From contig DAIDGR010000008.1 in NCBI GenBank assembly GCA_027452265.1, positions 1-35,708 on the forward strand: DNA of 35,708 bases, read 5' to 3'. The first letter of the stretch is position 1. Each line of letters opens with the position of its first letter. The notes beneath the pieces were generated by a model. It was given only the letters and a program-made list of their open reading frames with translations. It ran no database searches and was not told the origin of the DNA. A program made the translations under genes and the position numbers. Shown piece after piece: positions 5,832 to 32,888 of this stretch. Source of the DNA: Caulobacteraceae bacterium (GTDB lineage Bacteria > Pseudomonadota > Alphaproteobacteria > Caulobacterales > Caulobacteraceae).

Positions 5832-8402
5832 TTAGCGCGCGTGTTCGGCCTCACTGAAGGGGTGGGCGCCGCAGGATCCGCAGACGCGCTCGCCCGCTGC
5901 GCCACTCAGAGCAAAATCGCCGCAGGCGGGACAGACTTCGGCTGGCTCGCTCGGCCTGACCGCCGAGCTGCTGCTGCGATGGACCGGCAGGAAGACGAGG
6001 TTGTCTGGCGCCGCGCCCCGCGAAAAGCCCTTGGAAATGAACCGCGCCACGGGCTGAGGTTCGGCTTCGCCCAGGCCCTCCCGGTCGAGGGGCTCAGGAT
6101 CGCCCGCCGCGAGGTCGCGCCGGTCGAGATAAGAGACGCCGAGCTCGCGGAAGACGTAGTCGAGGATCGAGGTGGCCGAGCGGATCTGGTCGTTGCCGGT
6201 CACCGCGCCGGCGGGATCGAAACGGGTGAAGACGAACGCGTCGACGAATTCATCCAGGGGAACGCCATATTGCAGGCCGATCGAGACCGCGATGGCGAAG
6301 TTGTTCATCAGCGAACGGAAGGCGGCGCCTTCCTTGTGCATGTCGATGAAGATCTCCCCCAGGGCCCCATCGTCATATTCGCCGGTGTGGAGATAGACCT
6401 TGTGGCCGCCCACCGTGGCCTTCTGGATATAGCCTTTGCGCCGGTCGGGCAGGCGCTGTCGGCCAGGGCTCGCGGGGATAACGCGCTCCACGACCCGCTC
6501 AACGATCTTCTCACGGAACTCGACGTTCGGCGTTCGCGTCTCTTCAGCCGGGGGAAGCTCAAGACAGAAGTCGATCCCGCGCGGCGCGCGCGCCAGGCGG
6601 ATCACCCGTAGACCCGCCTTGAACGCGGCCGCCTGGAGGGCAATCGCCTCGGCCACTGAGGCGGTTGCGGGAAGGGGGAGGGCCGGGGCGAGGGGCGCGT
6701 CGAAAACGCCATCCAAGGCCGCCGCCATGGCGATCCGCGCGCTGGAGGAAATCTCGTCGCCCGTGAGGAGGGCGTGGACGACCTGGGTGGAAAGGCCGGG
6801 CTGCGCGTCCAGGCGCCCATCGCCCATCACGTGACGTTCGGCTTCGGCGATCTCCTCGGAGGTGAACCCCGCCCGGCGTAGGGGCGAGTCGTGGACAGGA
6901 TCGCCGCCCAGCACGTCCCGCACAAAGCCCTCGCCCAGGACCGATGACGAGAACGCGTCCTCCAGGGTCCTGGCCGTGGTGAGGGCCGCTTCAACCGCCC
7001 GACGCTCCAATTCGGTGAAGCCGGCCGCCGCCAATCGCTCGGGGGTCAGGGCCGGCGCGCCGGCAAGGGTGCGCGTCCCGAACAGGGCGAGGCGCAGGCT
7101 GTTGATGTCGCCGCCGAGCCGCCGGAGTCCTTCGACAGCCGCAGGATGCAGGGACGGGAGGATCGTGCCGTCCGCGGTCTCGCTCCAGATGACCGGACCG
7201 CGCCAGGGTTCGGCGTCTAGCGAAACCCCGCCGAGGCGAAGGGCAAGTTCGGCGGAGGCTGCCGGCCCAGTCACCTCGAAATTGCGCCGGGCGAACCCCT
7301 CCGGCGCCTGAGGCGGCCGGCCGAGCCGTATGGCCAGGTCTCTGGACGCCGCGAGAGCACTTTTGTGGAGGCCCTTGACGATCTCCACGGCCCGGGCGCG
7401 CCCGCCGTCGCTGTCATAGGCGAGGCCTTCCGACGCGAGGCGTTCGGCCAGGCCGGCGACACCCAAGGCGACGCTTCGATGGTCACGCCGGGCATAGGCC
7501 TCCAAAGCGGTTTCGCTGAACCCGACCGAGACGTCGATATCGAGGGCTGTGACCATGAGGTAGGCCAGCTCTGCGATCCGCGCCGGATCGACCGCCTCAA
7601 CCAGATTGATAGCCGCCGTCGGTCCCGCGCGACTGCGCCAGCGCGCCTCCACGGCGGCGGAATGCCGCGCGATTTCAAGTGTCTCCCGGCTCCATACGGC
7701 GGCGGCCGTCGCGGTCTCGTCAGGCCCGGCGAGGACGCACGCGGCGTCGAATAAGGGGGCGGCGTCGAGGCCGGCGACGCCGAGGGCGATGGCGTCCGCC
7801 AGGTCCGCGTCGCTCGCCCCAGCCTCTCTCGCGGCGTGGCCCGCGCGGGCCAAGGCTTGGTTGGCGCGCGGATCGGCGCAGGCTGCGGCATCGCCTTCGC
7901 AACGCAGAACCGCCTGGCTCACCGCCCTGAGGCGGGAGTGAAGGTGCGAAGAGGGGGGCGAGATGGGCGAGGCCGTGGTCCTGGACGGGGGCGCGGAGCT
8001 GGGGTCCAGGGCGAGGGGATGCAGACGGGCTCCAAAGGCCAGGCGCGGACCGGGCGCCGCCTCACCCCGCAACAGCGCGCGGACGAGCTCGGCGCGAAAG
8101 GCGTGGGCTTCGTCGCGCGCGGTGAAATGGCCAAGCGCCAGTCCCCAGGTCGCCAGCCGCGCGGCATAGGCGTCGGGTCCGCCCGCCAGCCAGGCCTGGG
8201 CGGTCTCGTCCGCGGGCAGGGGCTCGATTTCGAGCGGGAGATCGCGGGGCAGCGTGTCCGCCCAGTCCAGCCAGGCCTCGACCCTGGCGTTCGACCAGCC
8301 CTCGGGGGCGAAGACCTCGATCTCTCCCTGGCCACGCTCCAGCCATCGGGGACCGCCGGCGACGTCGAAAGTCCGGGCCTGGATCCTGGAGCGGCGCGTC
8401 AT
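5832..8402 (-). CDS. Degenerate class II (B12-dependent) ribonucleotide reductase homologue with TSCPD domain and C-terminal zinc ribbon
   Basis: An 856-residue protein from an ATG with a strong GAGGAGG site 6 nt ahead; the frame runs on to 8858 but those residues look non-coding. Residues about 60-125 match the NrdJ N-terminal domain ([17 protein letters not shown]). The segment [24 protein letters not shown] matches the reductase core. Residues about 645-750 are nearly canonical NrdJ C-terminus: [40 protein letters not shown] and [16 protein letters not shown]. The tail has CPACG and CGSCG (about 824-848), a zinc ribbon like NrdJ's redox tail. Missing are the KYGSGTGSNFS loop, the NPCSE motif and the Cys of CNLASLNL (here GPTAAINL), and the middle is shortened. 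Reductase activity is therefore unlikely. Two NrdR-like boxes lie upstream. A regulatory or scaffold role is only inference. Confidence 0.85.
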
Positions 8403-8446
8403 GGGAAGCCTCCTCTTCGAGACGCTAGGAGAGGCGCAGCGCGGAG

Positions 8447-8462
8447 GCAATAGATGTTGGGT
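8447..8462. promoter_or_regulatory. Candidate NrdR box 1
   Basis: This 16-mer matches the NrdR consensus acaCwaTATaTwGtgt at 11 of 16 positions (core aatagatgttggg). On the minus strand it overlaps the place where a -10 element of the reductase-like gene would fall (8450-8455, 17 bp after a TTGTCC -35 at 8473-8478). Its pairing with the box at 8479-8494, 16 bp away, is what makes it credible; alone it would be weak. Confidence 0.5.
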
Positions 8463-8478
8463 CTCAACCGGTGGACAA

Positions 8479-8494
8479 CCGCTATATCTTGAGT
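8479..8494. promoter_or_regulatory. Candidate NrdR box 2
   Basis: This 16-mer matches the NrdR consensus at 12 of 16 positions, with the core CTATATCTTG intact apart from one base. It is separated from box 1 by exactly 16 bp (32 bp start to start, about three helical turns), the tandem spacing NrdR uses to bind cooperatively. The boxes sit in the 171-bp divergent region between the reductase-like gene and the NDUFA12-like gene. Binding is inferred, not shown. Confidence 0.6.
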
Positions 8495-8538
8495 GGATAG
8501 GAGACGACCGCGCAGCCATCGCCGCGCATCTGGGCCCC

Positions 8539-8573
8539 TGGACGCGGGCCGGCCTGCCGCCTATAGACCCGGC
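8539..8573 (+). promoter_or_regulatory. Candidate promoter giving a leaderless NDUFA12-like mRNA
   Basis: TGGACG (8539-8544) and TATAGA (8562-8567) are separated by 17 bp and match sigma-70 hexamers at 4 of 6 positions each. Transcription would begin about 7 nt after the -10, at or next to the GTG start at 8574. There is no Shine-Dalgarno sequence before that GTG, which fits a leaderless transcript, a common feature in Caulobacter. Prediction only. Confidence 0.4.
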
Positions 8574-8969
8574 GTGCTCAGAGATATCTTTACATGGTGG
8601 TTCGGCGCGACCATCGGCGCGCGCAACCAGATCCGTCGCTCGGCCCGGCTCGTGGGCCATGACGATACGGGCAACGCCTATTACGAGAGCGTGGATCCCA
8701 AGTTTTCCTATGACGGGCACACCCGTCGCTTCGTGATCTACAAGGGCTATGCCGACGCATCCAAGGTTCCGCCGGAATGGCACGGCTGGCTGCACCATAC
8801 CTTCGATGAGCCGCCGACCCGGGCGCCTTTGCCGCGCAAGGCCTGGGAAAAGGATCACAAGCCCAATCTGACCGGCACCATCTGGGCGTGGCGCCCTCGC
8901 GGCGCCCTGGCGCGGGGCGGAGAGCGGGCCGCCTCGAGCGGCGATTACGAGCCGTGGACCGGCGACTGA
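8574..8969 (+). CDS. NDUFA12-family NADH:ubiquinone oxidoreductase accessory protein
   Basis: Bacterial relative of the mitochondrial complex I subunit NDUFA12 (B17.2), an accessory subunit of respiratory complex I in alphaproteobacteria. The chosen GTG gives 131 residues beginning [17 protein letters not shown]. Family features follow in order: [16 protein letters not shown] (near 24-39), [26 protein letters not shown] (near 51-76), the DEPP segment, and [14 protein letters not shown] near 89-102. These are the W, H, P and G positions shared with B17.2. The reading frame extends upstream to 8493, but that part is not family-like. Its 3' end overlaps the likely GTG start of the DUF2155 gene by 16 nt. 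The pairing of NDUFA12 with DUF2155 and aat is common in this bacterial class. Confidence 0.9.
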
Positions 8970-16958: not shown

Positions 16959-19900
16959 TCAGGAGGCCGGGGCTTGCGAGGCCTCGCCCTCAAGGCCGCC
17001 GATCAGGCGGAACAGGGCGGGCATGACCCATAGAACGATCGGTCCCTGGGCCAGGAGCCCGGCGATGATTGCGATCGCCAGGGGTTGCTCCATGGCCGCC
17101 CCGGCTCCCAGCGCCAGGGCCAGCGGGATGAGGGCCAGGATCGCCGCCAGGGTGGTCATCGCGATCGGTCGCAGACGATTGGCGCCGGCCGTCACCAGGG
17201 CCTCGACCCTGTCCATCCCCTCAAGGAGCAGCGCGTCGAACTCCGTGAAATAGAAGATCGCCACCTCGGTCGTGATTCCAAGGATCATGGTCGCCCCCAT
17301 CAGGGCCATGATGTTCAGCTCGACGCCCGTGACCAGAAGCCCGATCGCCACGGCGGTCACCGACAACAGCGGCGCGGCCAGGATCGCGGCGGCGATCCGG
17401 AAATTCTCGAAAAGGAACAGCAGCAGGACAAAGAGCGCCCCCACGGCCCCCACGAAGACGACCGCCATGCCTCGAAAGGCCTCGATCTGTTGGGCGTAGA
17501 GGCCTCCGAGCTTGTAGGTGATCCCCGCGGGAAGGACTCCGGGCTTGTGCAGGAGGCCGATGATCTCCTTGGCCGCCGACCCGGTGTCGCGTCCTTCGAC
17601 CCGCGCCGTCACAGGCTCCATTCTCTGAAGGTCCTGGCGTTCAATCTCGGACTGACCGCTGACGGTGCTGAGGGTGGCGATGTCTTTCAGGGGAAAGAGG
17701 TGGCCATCCGCGGCCTTGAGCGGCGCGTCCAGGAGCTTGGCCTGGCGGTCGCGATCCAACGGGGGCGTCCAAACCCGGAGATTGACGAGATAGGCGCCCG
17801 ATTGCACCTGGGTGTCGACGACCCCTGAAATCAGGCCGCTGATCTGTCGCGCGGCCTCGGCGCGGTCGATCCCCTCCAGGGCGGCCTTTACCGGATCGAC
17901 GGTGACGGCCAGCGAGTCGCCCACGACCACGATGCCGTCCTTGATCTCGGTCACCCCCCGAACGCCCCCGATCAGGGCGGCGACGCGCTTCGCCGTATCC
18001 TGAAGTTGGCCATAGTCCGGGCCATAGAGCTGGATCTCGATGGGCTGTGGGACGTCGGTCAGGTCGCCGATCAGATCCTCCATCAACTGAGAGGTTTCGA
18101 TCTCCAGACCCGGGACCTGTTTCTGAATGTCCTCGCGGATATGGGTCATCACCTCGTCGATCGGGGGACGGGGACCGTTCTTCAGGCGGATGAAGATGTC
18201 CCCGGTATTCGGCTCGGTGAGCCCGCCTCCGAGCTGCGCGCCCGTGCGACGGGAGTAGGTCTCCACGGCTGGGTTCGCGCGGATCACGGCTTCGACCTGC
18301 CGGAGCAGCCGGTCTGTCTCGGAAAGGGAGGACCCCGGCGGCGCGATATAGTCGAGGGTAAACCCGCCCTCATCGACCTTCGGCATGAACCCCGAGCCCA
18401 CGTGCGTGAAGGCGACGATCCCGACCGCCCCAAAGGCCAGGGCGCAGATCAAGGTGACGCGCGGCGCCGCGAGCGCCGCGCGCAGCGTGGAGCGATAGAG
18501 GGATATCAGGCGACCGGACGTGTTGACAGGCGCGGCCGCCCGCCCGCTCAGAAGCCGCTCCGCGATGACAGGGACAACCCACCAGGCGAACAGGAACGAG
18601 ATCGCTAAGGCGCTCGCCATGGTCAGGGACAGGGCCTTGAAGAAGGCGCCCGTGACCCCTGAAAGGAACGCAAGGGGCGCAAAGATGACCAGGGTGGCGG
18701 CTGAGGAGCCAAACAGGGGCTTCAGGAACTCCGCCGCCGCCTCAGGGACAACCTCCTCGGCGCGCCTCTCCGTGCCCTGCATGCGACGCTCGACATGCTC
18801 GAGCATGACGATGGCGTCGTCGATGATCAGGCCGATGGCGGCCGCCATGCCCCCAAGGGTCATGATGTTGAAGCTTTGGCCGAGAATCGACAGCATGAGG
18901 GTGGTGACCGCCAGGGTCGCCGGCACCACGATGACGGCGGCCAGAGTGATCTTCCAGTCGCGGAGAAAGACGAAGAGGACCAGCCCGGCGAGGGCCACGC
19001 CCAAAACGATCGCGTCGCGCAGGGCGGACGCCGAACGGGTAATGAGTTGGCTCTGGTCGTACCAGTTGGCGTAGTTGACCTTGGCCGGTCCGAGCTTCTG
19101 CGCCGCCTTGAACACCTTCTGCGCGGCGGCCACGATCTGGACGGTGTTGCCGCCACGCTGCTGATAGAGATTGATCAGGACCGCGTCCTTGCCGTCCGCC
19201 GTGACGCGGATCCATTGAGGCGCGGGGGCGGCCGTCACCTTGGCGACGTCGCCCACGCGAACAACGCCCCCGGCCGCCGTGTGGATCGGTGCGTCGATGA
19301 TCTGGCGAATATCGGTGAGGCGAGAATCATTGAGGACCAGCAGCAGCTTGCCCCGGTCCTCCAGCTTTCCGGCGGCGCTCAGAATGTTGTCATTGGCGAT
19401 CGCGGCCGAGACGTCATTCAAGGTCAGGCCAAGGGCGCGAAGGGCCTCCGGGTCTATGGTGATCCGGTACTCGCCAACTTCCCCCCCCTGGCTCTCTGCC
19501 CGCATCACGCCGTTCACCGTCGTGAGCATGGGGGCCAGCACGCGATCAGCGAACTCGCGAAGCTCCACAAGGGAGGCCTTTGACGATGTCAGGCTATAGG
19601 CGGCGATGGGGAAGACGACAGGATCCATGCGCCGGGTCGCGTAGGTGACCCCAGACATGGCCTGGGTGGACTGGGACATGGCGGCGTCCACGCGCTGAAG
19701 CGCGAGGTCCATGTCGGAGCCCCAGCGAAAGTTGATCGAGACCTCCACTTCGCCGCGACTGGTGGTCGTGCGGATCGACTGCACGTCCTGCACGGCGCGC
19801 AGCGCCGATTCCACCGGACGGGTCACCATGGTTTCGGTCTGGTCGATCGGACGGTCTCCGGCGTCCACCGTCACCGCGATCCGGGGAAAGCGGACATTGG

Positions 19901-20012
19901 GGAACAGGGCGACGGGCAGGGCGAATCCGGCGGCGATCCCGCCGACCACGAGGATCGCGAGAAGTGTGAGGAGTGAGCGCCGTCGCGCCGAGACGATCTG
20001 GTGAAGGGTCAT
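16959..20012 (-). CDS. RND efflux transporter permease subunit
   Basis: A 1017-residue inner-membrane proton-driven pump of the HAE-1/AcrB-like RND type. Two halves each have a periplasmic porter domain flanked by membrane helices. TM1 is near 13-31 (LLTLLAILVVGGIAAGFALP). The second helix block of the first half (about 330-475) includes TM4 with IGLIIDDAIVMLEHVERRM near residue 398, whose paired Asp form the proton relay. The second half begins with a TM near 520-540. The HAE-like DD rather than the heavy-metal CzcA pattern points to organic substrates, but the actual substrate is not predictable. The ATG at 20012 overlaps the adaptor stop by 1 nt (TGATG). A TTG one codon earlier is less likely. 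Confidence 0.95.
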   Translation of the reverse strand: MTLHQIVSARRRSLLTLLAILVVGGIAAGFALPVALFPNVRFPRIAVTVDAGDRPIDQTETMVTRPVESALRAVQDVQSIRTTTSRGEVEVSINFRWGSDMDLALQRVDAAMSQSTQAMSGVTYATRRMDPVVFPIAAYSLTSSKASLVELREFADRVLAPMLTTVNGVMRAESQGGEVGEYRITIDPEALRALGLTLNDVSAAIANDNILSAAGKLEDRGKLLLVLNDSRLTDIRQIIDAPIHTAAGGVVRVGDVAKVTAAPAPQWIRVTADGKDAVLINLYQQRGGNTVQIVAAAQKVFKAAQKLGPAKVNYANWYDQSQLITRSASALRDAIVLGVALAGLVLFVFLRDWKITLAAVIVVPATLAVTTLMLSILGQSFNIMTLGGMAAAIGLIIDDAIVMLEHVERRMQGTERRAEEVVPEAAAEFLKPLFGSSAATLVIFAPLAFLSGVTGAFFKALSLTMASALAISFLFAWWVVPVIAERLLSGRAAAPVNTSGRLISLYRSTLRAALAAPRVTLICALAFGAVGIVAFTHVGSGFMPKVDEGGFTLDYIAPPGSSLSETDRLLRQVEAVIRANPAVETYSRRTGAQLGGGLTEPNTGDIFIRLKNGPRPPIDEVMTHIREDIQKQVPGLEIETSQLMEDLIGDLTDVPQPIEIQLYGPDYGQLQDTAKRVAALIGGVRGVTEIKDGIVVVGDSLAVTVDPVKAALEGIDRAEAARQISGLISGVVDTQVQSGAYLVNLRVWTPPLDRDRQAKLLDAPLKAADGHLFPLKDIATLSTVSGQSEIERQDLQRMEPVTARVEGRDTGSAAKEIIGLLHKPGVLPAGITYKLGGLYAQQIEAFRGMAVVFVGAVGALFVLLLFLFENFRIAAAILAAPLLSVTAVAIGLLVTGVELNIMALMGATMILGITTEVAIFYFTEFDALLLEGMDRVEALVTAGANRLRPIAMTTLAAILALIPLALALGAGAAMEQPLAIAIIAGLLAQGPIVLWVMPALFRLIGGLEGEASQAPAS

Positions 20013-21073
20013 CAACGACCGACCCGCACGTCCATGCCGTCCTGAAGCTGGTAGGCGCCGGTCAGGGCCACCAACTGTCCGGCCTGGATCGGGCCGCTCA
20101 CCTCAACTTCGTCGCCGACCTGGGGGCCTGGCCTGACGTTCACCCGCGAGGCCTTGCCCTTGGCGATCACGAATAGGTGGGCCCCGGTCTCGTCATAGAC
20201 GACCGCGCCGGCCGGGACGCTGAAGCCTTGATGAGAGCCCGCGACGATCCGGGCTTTGAGCGCCGCGCCGACCGGCTCGCCAGCCCCGGACAGAGGCGCT
20301 TCAACGGCGATTTGCTTGGTCGCGGGGTCAACCAGTCGTCCCACCTCGCTGAGGGTTGAGGTGAAGGCGCCGCCGCCAAAGACGGCTGTCATCGCGACCT
20401 TGTCGCCCACCTTCAGTTTTGCGGCGTCGCCTGGGCTGACCCATAGATGGGCGACCGACGGGGTCTGGCCTGAAAGCGTCACAAGCTCCGCCATGTCCGC
20501 GACCCGTTGTCCGGGTACGGCCGGCACGGTCAGCACGACGCCGCCGGCCGGGGCTTTGAGAACCACCGTGGCGTCGCCGGCGCCTTGAGCCTTGGCGGCG
20601 CTCCAAGCGGCTTGGGCGTCGGCGAGATTACGCTCCGCCAGGCTGACCTGGTCCGAGCCTACGAGATGCTGGGCGGCGAGGGTCTGGATGCGCGTCAGGT
20701 CCCGCTGGGCGGCGTTCAACGCGTTCTTCGCCTGGGCGAAAGCCAGGGCGGTTGTTGGGAGATCGCCAATCCGAACGAGCGGCTGGCCCTTCACCACCGG
20801 TTCGCCCGGGCGCACATAAACGGCGCGCACAATGACCGCGCGCGGCGCGGCGACCGTGGTCTGGCCCCCGGGGTCGGCCTGGACCGCGCCCGTCGCGAGG
20901 ACAACATCGTCGATCGGGCCCGTGTGCACCGGGGCGAGGGTGACGAGGGCCGCCCCGTCGACATCCTGGTCCCCCTCTCCGGAGCCATGGAAGAACAGGA
21001 TGGCGGATATGGCGATCATCGCGCAGGCGACGGCGGCCAAGCCGACCAGGACGGGTTTGGTCACGCGGCTCAC
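20012..21073 (-). CDS. RND efflux periplasmic adaptor (membrane fusion protein)
   Basis: A 353-residue HlyD/AcrA-type adaptor that bridges the pump and the outer-membrane channel. The N-terminal anchor helix (about 7-28, LVGLAAVACAMIAISAILFF) has no convincing lipobox. A lipoyl half-motif (VRAVYVRPGEPVVKGQPLVRIGD, near 81-103) is followed by a helical hairpin (about 107-163, with KNALNAAQRDLTRIQTLAAQ). The second lipoyl half and beta-barrel follow (GGVVLTVPAVPGQRVADMAE near 177-196, then WVSPGDAAKLKVGDKVAM). The start is a GTG overlapping nothing upstream except the channel stop by 4 nt (GTGA), giving coupled translation from the channel gene to the adaptor to the pump. Confidence 0.93.
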   Translation of the reverse strand: MSRVTKPVLVGLAAVACAMIAISAILFFHGSGEGDQDVDGAALVTLAPVHTGPIDDVVLATGAVQADPGGQTTVAAPRAVIVRAVYVRPGEPVVKGQPLVRIGDLPTTALAFAQAKNALNAAQRDLTRIQTLAAQHLVGSDQVSLAERNLADAQAAWSAAKAQGAGDATVVLKAPAGGVVLTVPAVPGQRVADMAELVTLSGQTPSVAHLWVSPGDAAKLKVGDKVAMTAVFGGGAFTSTLSEVGRLVDPATKQIAVEAPLSGAGEPVGAALKARIVAGSHQGFSVPAGAVVYDETGAHLFVIAKGKASRVNVRPGPQVGDEVEVSGPIQAGQLVALTGAYQLQDGMDVRVGR

Positions 21074-22476
21074 GGACGGATCTCCACGGGGGCTGGCGGC
21101 AGAAACAGGGCGCCTTCGAGCGTGATCTCTGAAAGCCGCGCGGCAAGGTCGCGGTCGGCAAGGTCGCTGACGCGGGCGGCATAGGTCTGCGCCGCCGTGA
21201 CATAGGTGGGGCCGTCGATGTCCCCCCTGGCGAATGCGACCTTTGCGGACTGCGCCAGGTCTTTCAGTCGGGGAAGCGCGCCCTGAAGGATGGCGATCTG
21301 TTCGCGTGCGGCGGAGAGGGTCGACATCTCCGCGGCCACATCCGCATCGGACTGATCGAGACGCGCCTGATATTCGGCCCGAAGTTGGTCGCGCGTCGCC
21401 GCCTCAACAGCGACCGGCCCGCGCGCCGTTCCAAAGACGGGGAGGGTGAGGGTCGCCTGCGGCCCGGTGGAGGCGATCCCCGTGTTATCCATGGCGCGGC
21501 TGAGGCCCACATTGAGAAGCGGAAACTGCGCCAGGACCGCCCGCCTCAGATTGGCTTGCTGGCTTTCATAGCCGGCCTGCAAGGCCAGAAGATCGGGGCG
21601 GCGAGTCGCGAGACTGGCGCGGGCCCGCTCCAAGGCGCCCCGATCCCAGCTGCGGTCGGCGGGCGTCTCCCTCAGAAGGAGTCGCGTCGTCGGCTTGAGG
21701 CCTAGCAGGGCGTTCAGATCGAGCCTCGCTCGTGCGGCCACCTGCCTTGCGGCGGTCAGCTGAGATTGCGCATCCACGCGAACGCCCTCGTCCGTCGCGG
21801 CTTGGGCCGCCGAAATGGAGCCGCGGGCCGACGCATCGCGCGCGCTCTGGGCTTCCGATTCGGCCGCCTGGGCGAAGGCGTCCAGGGCCGGCAGACGGGC
21901 TTCCTCGGCCAGGACGATCTCGGCAAGGGCCCGCGCCTGCTGGGCCACGCCCCATTCCGCCCAGAGGAGATCCAGATGGGCCTGTCTTTCCGTCGCCTTG
22001 GCGGCGTGCAGGGCCGGGGCGTGGGCGATCAGTCCGGCAATGTCCAGGCTGGGTGTGATCCCGTAGGCTGTCGCCGCAGGCTGGCCCGGGCCCACGAATT
22101 GGTTTGGGCCGGGAATGTCCGCCGAAAGGCTGACCTGCGGATCGGGAAGCAGGCGCGCCGCGAAGGTCTGGGCGGCGGCCACCCCGGCGGCGGCCCGCTT
22201 GGCGTTGAGATCGGGATCGTTCAGCACCGCCAGAATAGCGACGTCGACGGGCGTGAGGCCCGCCCGCGGGTCGATGACCTCACGACCCAGAGGAAGATCA
22301 GGGGGGCTCGTCGCGCGCGCGACAAGGCTGTCGAGCGAGTCGGTCGTCGACGGGCCCGTGGCCAAGGGGGCGGGGCCAGGCATGAGGCATGCCGACAGAC
22401 TGGCCGCCGCAACAATGGCCAGAACCGAACTCGCCGGGCGTCGTCGCAGAGGGAGCATTAGAGGAGGCGCGTGCAC
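21070..22476 (-). CDS. Outer-membrane efflux lipoprotein (TolC/OprM-like)
   Basis: A 468-residue outer-membrane channel of the tripartite pump. The start is a GTG at 22476 with GAGGA 9 nt upstream; an ATG 6 codons later lacks a ribosome site. The N-terminus ends in the lipobox LSAC, giving a lipidated Cys at residue 30. Two TolC-type repeats of long amphipathic helices follow, with KATERQAHLDLLWAEWGVAQ (near 160) and EAESEAQSARDASARGSIS in the first, and ARASLATRRPDLLALQAGYE and RDQLRAEYQARLDQSDADVA in the second. The RRPDLLAL motif is typical of OprM-like channels. It is the first gene of the efflux operon, divergent from the PadR regulator across 69 bp. Confidence 0.92.
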   Translation of the reverse strand: MHAPPLMLPLRRRPASSVLAIVAAASLSACLMPGPAPLATGPSTTDSLDSLVARATSPPDLPLGREVIDPRAGLTPVDVAILAVLNDPDLNAKRAAAGVAAAQTFAARLLPDPQVSLSADIPGPNQFVGPGQPAATAYGITPSLDIAGLIAHAPALHAAKATERQAHLDLLWAEWGVAQQARALAEIVLAEEARLPALDAFAQAAESEAQSARDASARGSISAAQAATDEGVRVDAQSQLTAARQVAARARLDLNALLGLKPTTRLLLRETPADRSWDRGALERARASLATRRPDLLALQAGYESQQANLRRAVLAQFPLLNVGLSRAMDNTGIASTGPQATLTLPVFGTARGPVAVEAATRDQLRAEYQARLDQSDADVAAEMSTLSAAREQIAILQGALPRLKDLAQSAKVAFARGDIDGPTYVTAAQTYAARVSDLADRDLAARLSEITLEGALFLPPAPVEIRP

Positions 22477-31048: not shown

Positions 31049-32359
31049 GTGAGCCTCGTCCAAGACCTGACCCCCGCTTCTCACTCCGAGGGGCTCGCCA
31101 TGACCCCGCTCAAGGATCAGGACCCTGATCTCGCCGCCATGATGGGTCGCGAGCTCCACCGACAGCAGACGCAGATCGAATTGATCGCGTCAGAGAACAT
31201 CGTGTCCCGCGCGGTGCTCGAGGCTCAGGGCTCGGTGCTGACCAACAAATACGCCGAGGGCTATCCCGGGAAGCGCTATTACGGCGGCTGTGAATGGGTC
31301 GATGAGGTCGAAAGCCTGGCCATCGCCCGGGCCAAGCGTCTGTTCGACTGCGCCTGGGCCAATGTTCAGCCGCATTCCGGCTCGCAGGCCAACCAGGCCG
31401 TGTTCATGGCCCTGATGAAGCCCGGCGATACCTTCATGGGCATGGACCTCGCGGCCGGGGGGCACCTCACCCACGGCAAGTCGGTAAATCAGTCGGGTAA
31501 ATGGTTCCAGCCGATCTCCTATGGGGTGCGGCCGCAAGACGCCCTGATCGACTATGAGGCCATGGAAGAGTTGGCGGAGACCCATCGGCCCAAGGTGATT
31601 ATCGCTGGCGGATCGGCCTACAGTCGAACGATCGATTTCGCGCGCTTCCGCCGCGCCGCGGACAAGGCCGGCGCCCGGCTGATGGTCGATATGGCGCACT
31701 TTGCGGGCCTCGTGGCCGGTGGCGTCTTTCCAAGCCCGCTCGGCTTTGCCGATGTGGTGACGACGACGACCCACAAGACCCTGCGCGGCCCGCGCGGCGG
31801 ATTGATTCTCTCCAACGACCTGAAACTCGGCAAGAAGATCGACTCGTCCGTGTTCCCGGGGCTCCAGGGCGGACCGCTGATGCATGTCATCGCCGCCAAG
31901 GCGGTGGCGTTCGGCGAGGCGCTGCAGCCGGAATTCAAGAGCTATGCGGCGCGCGTCGTCGCCACCGCCCGCGCCCTGGCCGACTGTTTGATCTCGCGGG
32001 GACTGGCCATCGTCTCCAACGGCACCGACAGCCACCTCATGCTGGTGGATCTGAGGCCCAAGGGCGTAACCGGTCAGGCCGCCGAAATTGCCCTCGAGCG
32101 GGCTGGGATCACCTGCAACAAGAACGGCATTCCCTTTGATCCCCAGCCCCCGGCGGTGACCTCCGGACTTCGCCTGGGTACGCCGGCCGGCGCCACGCGT
32201 GGGTTTGGCGAATCGGAGTTCCGTCAGGTGGGCCACTGGATCGCCGATGTGATCGATGGGCTCGCCGCGAAGGGTGAGGGGGGGGATCCCGAGGTCGAAG
32301 CCCGGGTCCGCGGCGGGGTCGAGGCCCTGACCGCCCGCTTCCCGATCTACCGGGACTGA
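31049..32359 (+). CDS. glyA: Serine hydroxymethyltransferase
   Basis: Interconverts serine and glycine with tetrahydrofolate, supplying one-carbon units and glycine (also the substrate of hemA just upstream). The 436-residue protein starts at GTG 31049, with GAGGA 6-7 nt ahead. Family motifs: [13 protein letters not shown] near 45-57, [21 protein letters not shown] near 64-85, [12 protein letters not shown] near 131-142, and [14 protein letters not shown] with PLP-binding K243. The C-terminus [11 protein letters not shown] is typical. The stop is 4 bp before nrdR, so glyA-nrdR-nusB-thiL probably form one operon. Confidence 0.98.
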
Positions 32360-32363
32360 CGCC

Positions 32364-32888
32364 GTGCGCTGTCCTTTCTGCGGCGAGCTGGAAAGCCAGG
32401 TGAAGGACAGCCGTCCAAGCGAGGACGGTGCGGCGATCAGGCGGCGGCGCCAGTGTCCGCAGTGCGGCGGACGATTCACGACGTTCGAGCGGGTTCAGCT
32501 TCGTGAGCTGACCATCCTCAAGCGTTCGGGGCGGCGGGCGCCGTTCGACCGGGAGAAGCTGGTGCGCTCGATCATTGTCGCCGTGCGCAAGCGACCCGTG
32601 GATCCCGAGCGCATTGAGCGCATGGTCAATGGCATCACCCGTCGCCTGGAGAGCCTTGGCGAGACCGAGCTGCCCTCACACGTGGTCGGTGAAATGGTCA
32701 TGCGCGCCCTCAAGCAACTCGATGACGTGGCCTATGTCCGCTACGCGTCGGTCTATCGCGATTTTCGACATACCGACGACTTCGTCCGGTTTCTGGGCGA
32801 TGAGGGCCTGGGCGAAGACACGACCGAGGACGAGGGGGCTCTCGATGGGCCGGAGGCCGGACCAAAGGGCAGGGGGGAGGGGGCATGA
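32364..32888 (+). CDS. nrdR: Transcriptional repressor NrdR
   Basis: A 174-residue zinc-ribbon and ATP-cone repressor that senses ATP/dATP and shuts down ribonucleotide reductase genes at paired NrdR boxes. The GTG start gives MRCPFCG with the ribbon Cys C3, C6, C31 and C34 ([12 protein letters not shown]). The ATP-cone (about 49-139) includes [20 protein letters not shown] and [13 protein letters not shown]. The C-terminal tail (about 150-174) is longer than in E. coli, acidic then Gly/Arg-rich. The stop overlaps the nusB ATG by 4 nt. Paired NrdR-like boxes occur in this window at 8447-8494. Confidence 0.96.

Follow-up and report, generated by a model that had tools for sequence, protein, structure and literature searches.

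The nrdJ locus and its gene

The window (the whole stretch of 35,708 nucleotides of Caulobacteraceae DNA that was analysed) carries on its minus strand a gene for a protein of 856 residues related to the B12-dependent ribonucleotide reductase NrdJ, which is preceded by a strong ribosome-binding site, as originally predicted. The gene, its parts and its divergent neighbour are listed here by position in the window.

5832..8402, minus strand: nrdJ orthologue of 856 residues, predicted to be catalytically dead (open reading frame, domain models and orthologues)
5871..5933, minus strand: zinc ribbon C824-C827...C841-C844, all four putative zinc-ligand cysteines kept, shuttle pair gone
6123..6443, minus strand: TSCPD domain, residues 654-760, highly conserved
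6543..7133, minus strand: post-barrel region, residues 424-620, mostly helical, common to alphaproteobacterial NrdJ
7320..7616, minus strand: PF02867 remnant of the ribonucleotide reductase barrel, residues 263-361, the sole recognised barrel stretch
7602..7625, minus strand: GPTAAINL at residues 260-267, which is CNLASINL in catalytic NrdJ; the second redox cysteine of the active site is gone
8409..8414, minus strand: ribosome-binding site AGGAGG
8493..8969, plus strand: divergent neighbour NDUFA12 (frame taken from the earliest possible start), belonging to the conserved nrdJ locus

The only Pfam matches of the protein are a reductase barrel remnant with 47.7 bits (residues 263-361) and the TSCPD domain (residues 660-754), the latter with 39.1 bits for PF12637 against a cut-off of 22.8. 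The best NCBIfam model is NF005736, which describes alphaproteobacterial NrdJ with a length of 1222 residues, but the score of 331 bits does not reach the curated cut-off of this model (1737 bits), and the protein is about 350 residues shorter than alphaproteobacterial NrdJ. It is nevertheless homologous to this enzyme at both ends and shows the same domain order, its C-terminal domain is near-canonical when aligned with NrdJ relatives, and a PDB sequence search gives NrdJ of Rhodobacter sphaeroides (7b9p) as first match. The same structure is the best match to the full-length AF2 model (Foldseek, E 9.8e-20), with a TM-score of 0.45, which is a loose fit; this model has a mean pLDDT of 77, with high values for the greater part of residues 20-620, apart from approximately 125-149, and low ones in the TSCPD region. 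The C-terminal part was also modelled separately, and there the TSCPD domain is well predicted; with this second model, a Foldseek search of the PDB gave no match at E 0.001 or better, and IscU was not among the matches listed. Two further observations concern a motif RCEGD..ACADP with a cysteine pair at residues 167-175 (window 7878-7904), and three adjacent frames on the minus strand (16959-22476) which by eye resemble an RND efflux pump, a membrane fusion protein and an outer-membrane factor.

We compared the gene order at 80 nrdJ loci, of which 27 encode the dead form (defined below) and 52 a catalytic NrdJ; one locus (L058) was left uncounted. The genes for Aat, DUF2155 and NDUFA12 precede nrdJ in this order and orientation at 22 of the 27 dead loci, which belong to Caulobacter, Phenylobacterium, Brevundimonas, Maricaulis and Hyphomonas; a contig end truncates four of the remaining five, and the last one (L061, Brevundimonas) has none of the three genes. 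The same order is present at 8 of the 52 catalytic loci, including those of Robiginitomaculum (L085) and a member of the Parvibaculaceae (L072), with nrdJ set off by a gap in some cases, and five further catalytic loci have DUF2155 and NDUFA12. Many nrdJ loci of Rhodobacterales and Rhizobiales have none of the three. No second NrdJ was found in the own genome assembly (117 contigs, 98.9% complete), which does encode a class I reductase with an nrdA gene containing the NLCSE motif and an nrdB gene; the search for another reductase that had been proposed originally is thereby answered. This result and the synteny rule out that the gene is a paralogue, as had been assumed: judged by gene order, it is almost certainly the positional orthologue of nrdJ, residing in the ancestral nrdJ locus.

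Loss of catalytic motifs and the C-terminal module

We take NPCSE to represent the radical cysteine of the finger loop, and HACF and CNLAS the redox cysteine pair of the active site. In a sequence alignment with catalytic relatives, the 856-residue protein lacks NPCSE, both redox cysteines (the HACF and CNLAS motifs) and the APTGT loop, and no intact catalytic cysteine is found at an equivalent position. The absence of NPCSE, the reading GPTAAINL for CNLASLNL and the near-canonical C-terminal domain had all been pointed out originally and are confirmed. The shortening of the radical/redox segment is equally real: compared with catalytic relatives, a stretch of about 100-120 residues containing the first redox cysteine is largely gone, and most of a run of 19 residues directly before the NPCSE position is absent too.

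Relatives were scored for four motifs (NPCSE, CNLAS, ACF and APTGT), all counts being based on an HMM-based choice of reading frames. Of 170 relatives, 81 have neither NPCSE nor CNLAS, 88 have both, and a single cut frame (L058) could be placed in neither group. We call the first group dead; because it is defined by the missing NPCSE and CNLAS, these two absences are definitional, and the informative result is that no uncut relative is mixed: among the 150 non-duplicate, uncut relatives, the four motifs are jointly absent in 69 and jointly present in 81. In an earlier alignment, about three of the 60 rows taken as catalytic were without the motif letters and resemble wrong-frame ORFs. The column of the first redox cysteine is a gap in 46 of 46 dead rows and a cysteine in 47 of 47 catalytic rows; stray cysteines in dead rows (2/46 at the radical cysteine column and 1/46 at the CNLAS column) lie in poorly aligned stretches. 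The deletion directly before the NPCSE position has removed at least 15 of 19 residues in all 46 dead rows, and none of these residues is missing in the 47 catalytic rows. Chance is excluded as an explanation because the same losses are shared by orthologues across the family and outside it, and the alignments leave hardly any doubt that the gene product would be catalytically dead, as originally predicted.

The unplaced frame L058, from the Brevundimonas bin UBA2388, consists of a catalytic Paracoccus-like NrdJ core and a Brevundimonas tail of the dead type, joined near the TSCPD domain; its first part is 73-80% identical to its best matches, which come from Paracoccus and its kin. To judge by this composition, it is probably an assembly chimera.

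For the zinc domain of Stackebrandtia nassauensis NrdJd, Cys920, Cys923, Cys936 and Cys939 have been proposed as zinc ligands and Cys933 and Cys945 as an electron shuttle (PMC5704485). The dead protein has four zinc-ligand cysteines at equivalent positions, but not the redox pair Cys933/Cys945. The six-cysteine pattern of zinc ligands and shuttle pair is present in 86 of 86 non-duplicate catalytic relatives and in none of the 76 non-duplicate dead ones (0/75 with an uncut 3' end), and the four zinc-ligand cysteines are kept in 74 of these 76 (74/75 with an uncut 3' end), the exceptions being L044, whose 3' end is cut, and L059 from an Asticcacaulis bin, which has no ribbon at its end. The zinc ribbon, originally described as intact, is so as a zinc site with four cysteines, but the cysteines of the electron shuttle are gone. 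Mean identity within the TSCPD domain is 0.874 in dead forms (38 rows) compared with 0.880 (13 rows) and 0.842 (22 rows) in catalytic ones; these are raw identities uncorrected for divergence, and by this comparison the TSCPD domain is not relaxed in dead forms.

The folded domain in the long C-termini of class II enzymes is described as IscU-like in PMC9669993, and together with the zinc finger it represents the NrdJb of split enzymes; we equate this domain with TSCPD because of its same position. Dithiol exchange is given as the role of NrdJb in PMC4520616, and according to PMC5704485 the cysteine-rich domain of NrdJd (CRD) is also involved in oligomers induced by dATP or dGTP. The dead protein thus has the same C-terminal module as NrdJb of split class II reductases (Pseudomonas type), but the module is still fused to a barrel remnant, has lost the shuttle cysteines, and has no catalytic NrdJ partner in the assembly of its own genome. 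The loss of the shuttle pair makes electron transfer unlikely and leaves binding or the control of oligomers as conceivable functions. The zinc ribbon weakly resembles the TFIIB zinc domain (Pfam, E 0.09, under the cut-off).

Distribution, descent and selection

Within the Caulobacteraceae, 241 of 249 genomes gave a match at E 1e-5; five of these matches (G002, G049, G066, G224, G105) are weak, as expected for class I nrdA, and 236 genomes remain, so that the conservation assumed in the original prediction holds widely. The gene is dispensable, as 13 of the 249 genomes have no strong match. Genome G002, which is without the dead gene, contains a separate short class II NrdJ-like frame (L209) with an NPCGE motif that was perhaps acquired. 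Across the order, the NrdJ model matched in 397 of 398 genomes and its cut-off was passed in 78, all of them in two families (f4 and f5); in a control set, C. vibrioides matched the model, and none of the 14 controls reached the cut-off. Dead forms are found in the Caulobacteraceae (f1), in f2 and f3 and in part of f4.

In a gene tree of the post-barrel region, a single branch separates 46 dead from 47 catalytic rows (SH-aLRT 100, quick method), and a single f4 clade is rejected (p 0.001), with the reservation that long branches may contribute to this result. An RpoB tree of 26 genomes, in contrast, places the dead f4 species nearer to the catalytic f4 and f5 species than to f1-f3, which requires two changes; constraining the dead species to one clade was not rejected in this tree (p 0.11). 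Transfer or replacement within f4 may thus have taken place. Two separate losses in different lineages are not favoured, given the gene tree and the common 19-residue deletion. The gene tree rather suggests that alphaproteobacterial nrdJ would have lost catalysis once, in an ancestor of the Caulobacteraceae and neighbouring families.

Dead forms carry large deletions, and long open frames are retained in relatives. For 25 Caulobacteraceae pairs (16 after removing duplicate genomes), dN/dS ranges from 0.067 to 0.420 in the core and from 0 to 0.105 in the stretch from TSCPD to PDN; the zinc ligands and the TSCPD domain are thus preserved by strong purifying selection. The orthologues show no neutral decay, in agreement with the original view that this is not a decaying pseudogene, and the substitution pattern indicates that the dead gene has very probably retained a function. 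A gene that is kept and conserved without its chemistry suggests that it has a different job now.

NrdR-type boxes and a possible role without catalysis

Two candidate operator sites lie upstream of the gene, and a gene for the regulator NrdR is located in the same window.

8479..8494, minus strand: NrdR-type box 1, ACTCAAGATATAGCGG
8447..8462, minus strand: NrdR-type box 2, ACCCAACATCTATTGC, 32 bp from box 1
32367..32789, plus strand: nrdR, likely regulator of the dead nrdJ gene (TIGR00244, 173.7 bits)

By eye, nrdR directly follows a glyA-like frame at 31049-32359. Boxes were scored against what we take to be the NrdR consensus. Two palindromic NrdR-type boxes 31-32 bp apart, with each pair reaching at least 13/16, are present in 46 of 46 non-duplicate Caulobacteraceae upstream regions. 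Both the score and its threshold were chosen with these sequences in view, and the independent checks are nrdA, nrdB and NDUFA12. Block shuffles reach a score of 13 in 0.17%. A box pair is found upstream of nrdA in 28 of 30 genomes (13/14 in f1), and nrdB of the own genome has one as well. Upstream of NDUFA12, none of the 11 genomes that lack the dead gene (an absence read from genome searches) has a box pair, and the best score was 11/16; this rules out that the boxes belong to the divergent NDUFA12 gene. The spacing is the same as in PMC9110341, which describes paired boxes separated by about three helix turns, in which the GC pairs at positions 9/18 and 40/49 are conserved. In the second box a T often replaces the conserved G of the NrdR box.

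Outside the Caulobacteraceae, where a simple rule supplied most start sites, a box pair at the threshold precedes the dead gene in 0/6 cases in f2, in only 3/10 in f3 and in 0/9 dead members of f4, although nrdA carries box pairs in f2-f4. Among catalytic nrdJ genes, the threshold is reached by 24 of 51 outside the order and by 4 of 31 inside it. The boxes may have been left over from the former nrdJ promoter. In the Caulobacteraceae, the dead gene probably belongs to the NrdR regulon, with action of NrdR being predicted from the boxes.

The protein might serve deoxynucleotide metabolism as a scaffold or regulator without catalytic activity, in which the TSCPD and zinc-ribbon module, together with the eroded barrel, would bind a partner rather than move electrons. 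Such a partner would most likely be the class I reductase, with which it would share control by NrdR, or else a nucleotide acting as a signal. As a whole, the best explanation that we can offer, which is still a tentative one, is that the dead nrdJ orthologue serves, without catalysis of its own, as a partner or regulator in the NrdR regulon; with similar reserve, it may be supposed to act on or with the class I reductase or deoxynucleotide pools.

Alternatively, the TSCPD domain and zinc ribbon might be kept for a job other than deoxynucleotide metabolism, such as nucleic acid or protein binding, that already existed in catalytic NrdJ. We consider this unlikely, yet it would fit the nearly equal TSCPD conservation in dead and catalytic proteins, the persistence of the domain in lineages for which no pair of NrdR-type boxes was detected, and the faint TFIIB likeness of the ribbon. 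It accounts less well for the NrdR-type boxes kept in the Caulobacteraceae and for the core, which is also under purifying selection (dN/dS 0.067-0.420), so that the module would not be the sole working part.

Markedly less probable is a new chemistry in the core, for example by the C168/C175 pair that is common in the Caulobacteraceae: a motif RC.G...C occurs in 51 of 81 dead frames, nearly all from this family, and the AF2 model predicts an ordered core, but the pair is missing in 25 of 26 dead frames of f2-f4, and no known active-site pattern was found in the core. As 32 of 88 catalytic NrdJ have loosely similar cysteines, the pair may be inherited. An electron-transfer subunit resembling NrdJb and now serving the class I reductase would explain why the TSCPD domain and zinc ribbon of NrdJb type are kept; it is very improbable, however, as the six-cysteine pattern with the shuttle pair is seen in 0/75 dead relatives. 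Motif loss and large deletions are what a decaying pseudogene would show as well, but with dN/dS well below 1 in 25 of 25 pairs (0-0.105 for TSCPD in the Caulobacteraceae), conserved promoter boxes and long open frames in relatives there is scarcely any room for this interpretation. That the protein is a real B12-dependent ribonucleotide reductase, as its name in publications on C. crescentus implies, has next to no likelihood, since it has neither the cysteine motifs of the active site nor the shuttle pair, and the C. vibrioides control genome stays below the NrdJ cut-off.

In these publications, CCNA_01966 of C. crescentus is listed as NrdJ with a role in nucleotide reduction (PMC6538847) and as vitamin B12-dependent ribonucleotide reductase (PMC5869019); Table 1 of the latter also lists reads antisense to CCNA_01966 that co-purify with the stress RNA GsrN (log2 fold 11.3). 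The result for the C. vibrioides control and the finding that three Caulobacter loci (L041, L042, L048) are all dead lead us to infer that the C. crescentus homologue has probably been annotated wrongly as B12-dependent NrdJ. The complete scenario, in which a former B12-dependent NrdJ of the Caulobacterales became a non-catalytic pseudoenzyme that, under the control of NrdR, regulates the class I reductase or deoxynucleotide pools, arose once, was inherited through the families and was mis-annotated in C. crescentus, is possible, but we put it forward with considerable caution.

Kinases and proteases provide well-known examples of pseudoenzymes, but the retention of a dead ribonucleotide reductase by several bacterial families would, to our knowledge, be new. 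Our literature search, which was largely confined to freely accessible papers, found no report of a retained dead ribonucleotide reductase. The dead forms separate the poorly understood TSCPD domain from catalysis, and together with their catalytic relatives they represent a natural test of the role of this domain besides electron transfer. If CCNA_01966 is a dead form, the B12-dependent reductase of C. crescentus would not exist, which would alter the accounting of both B12 and deoxynucleotides in this organism.
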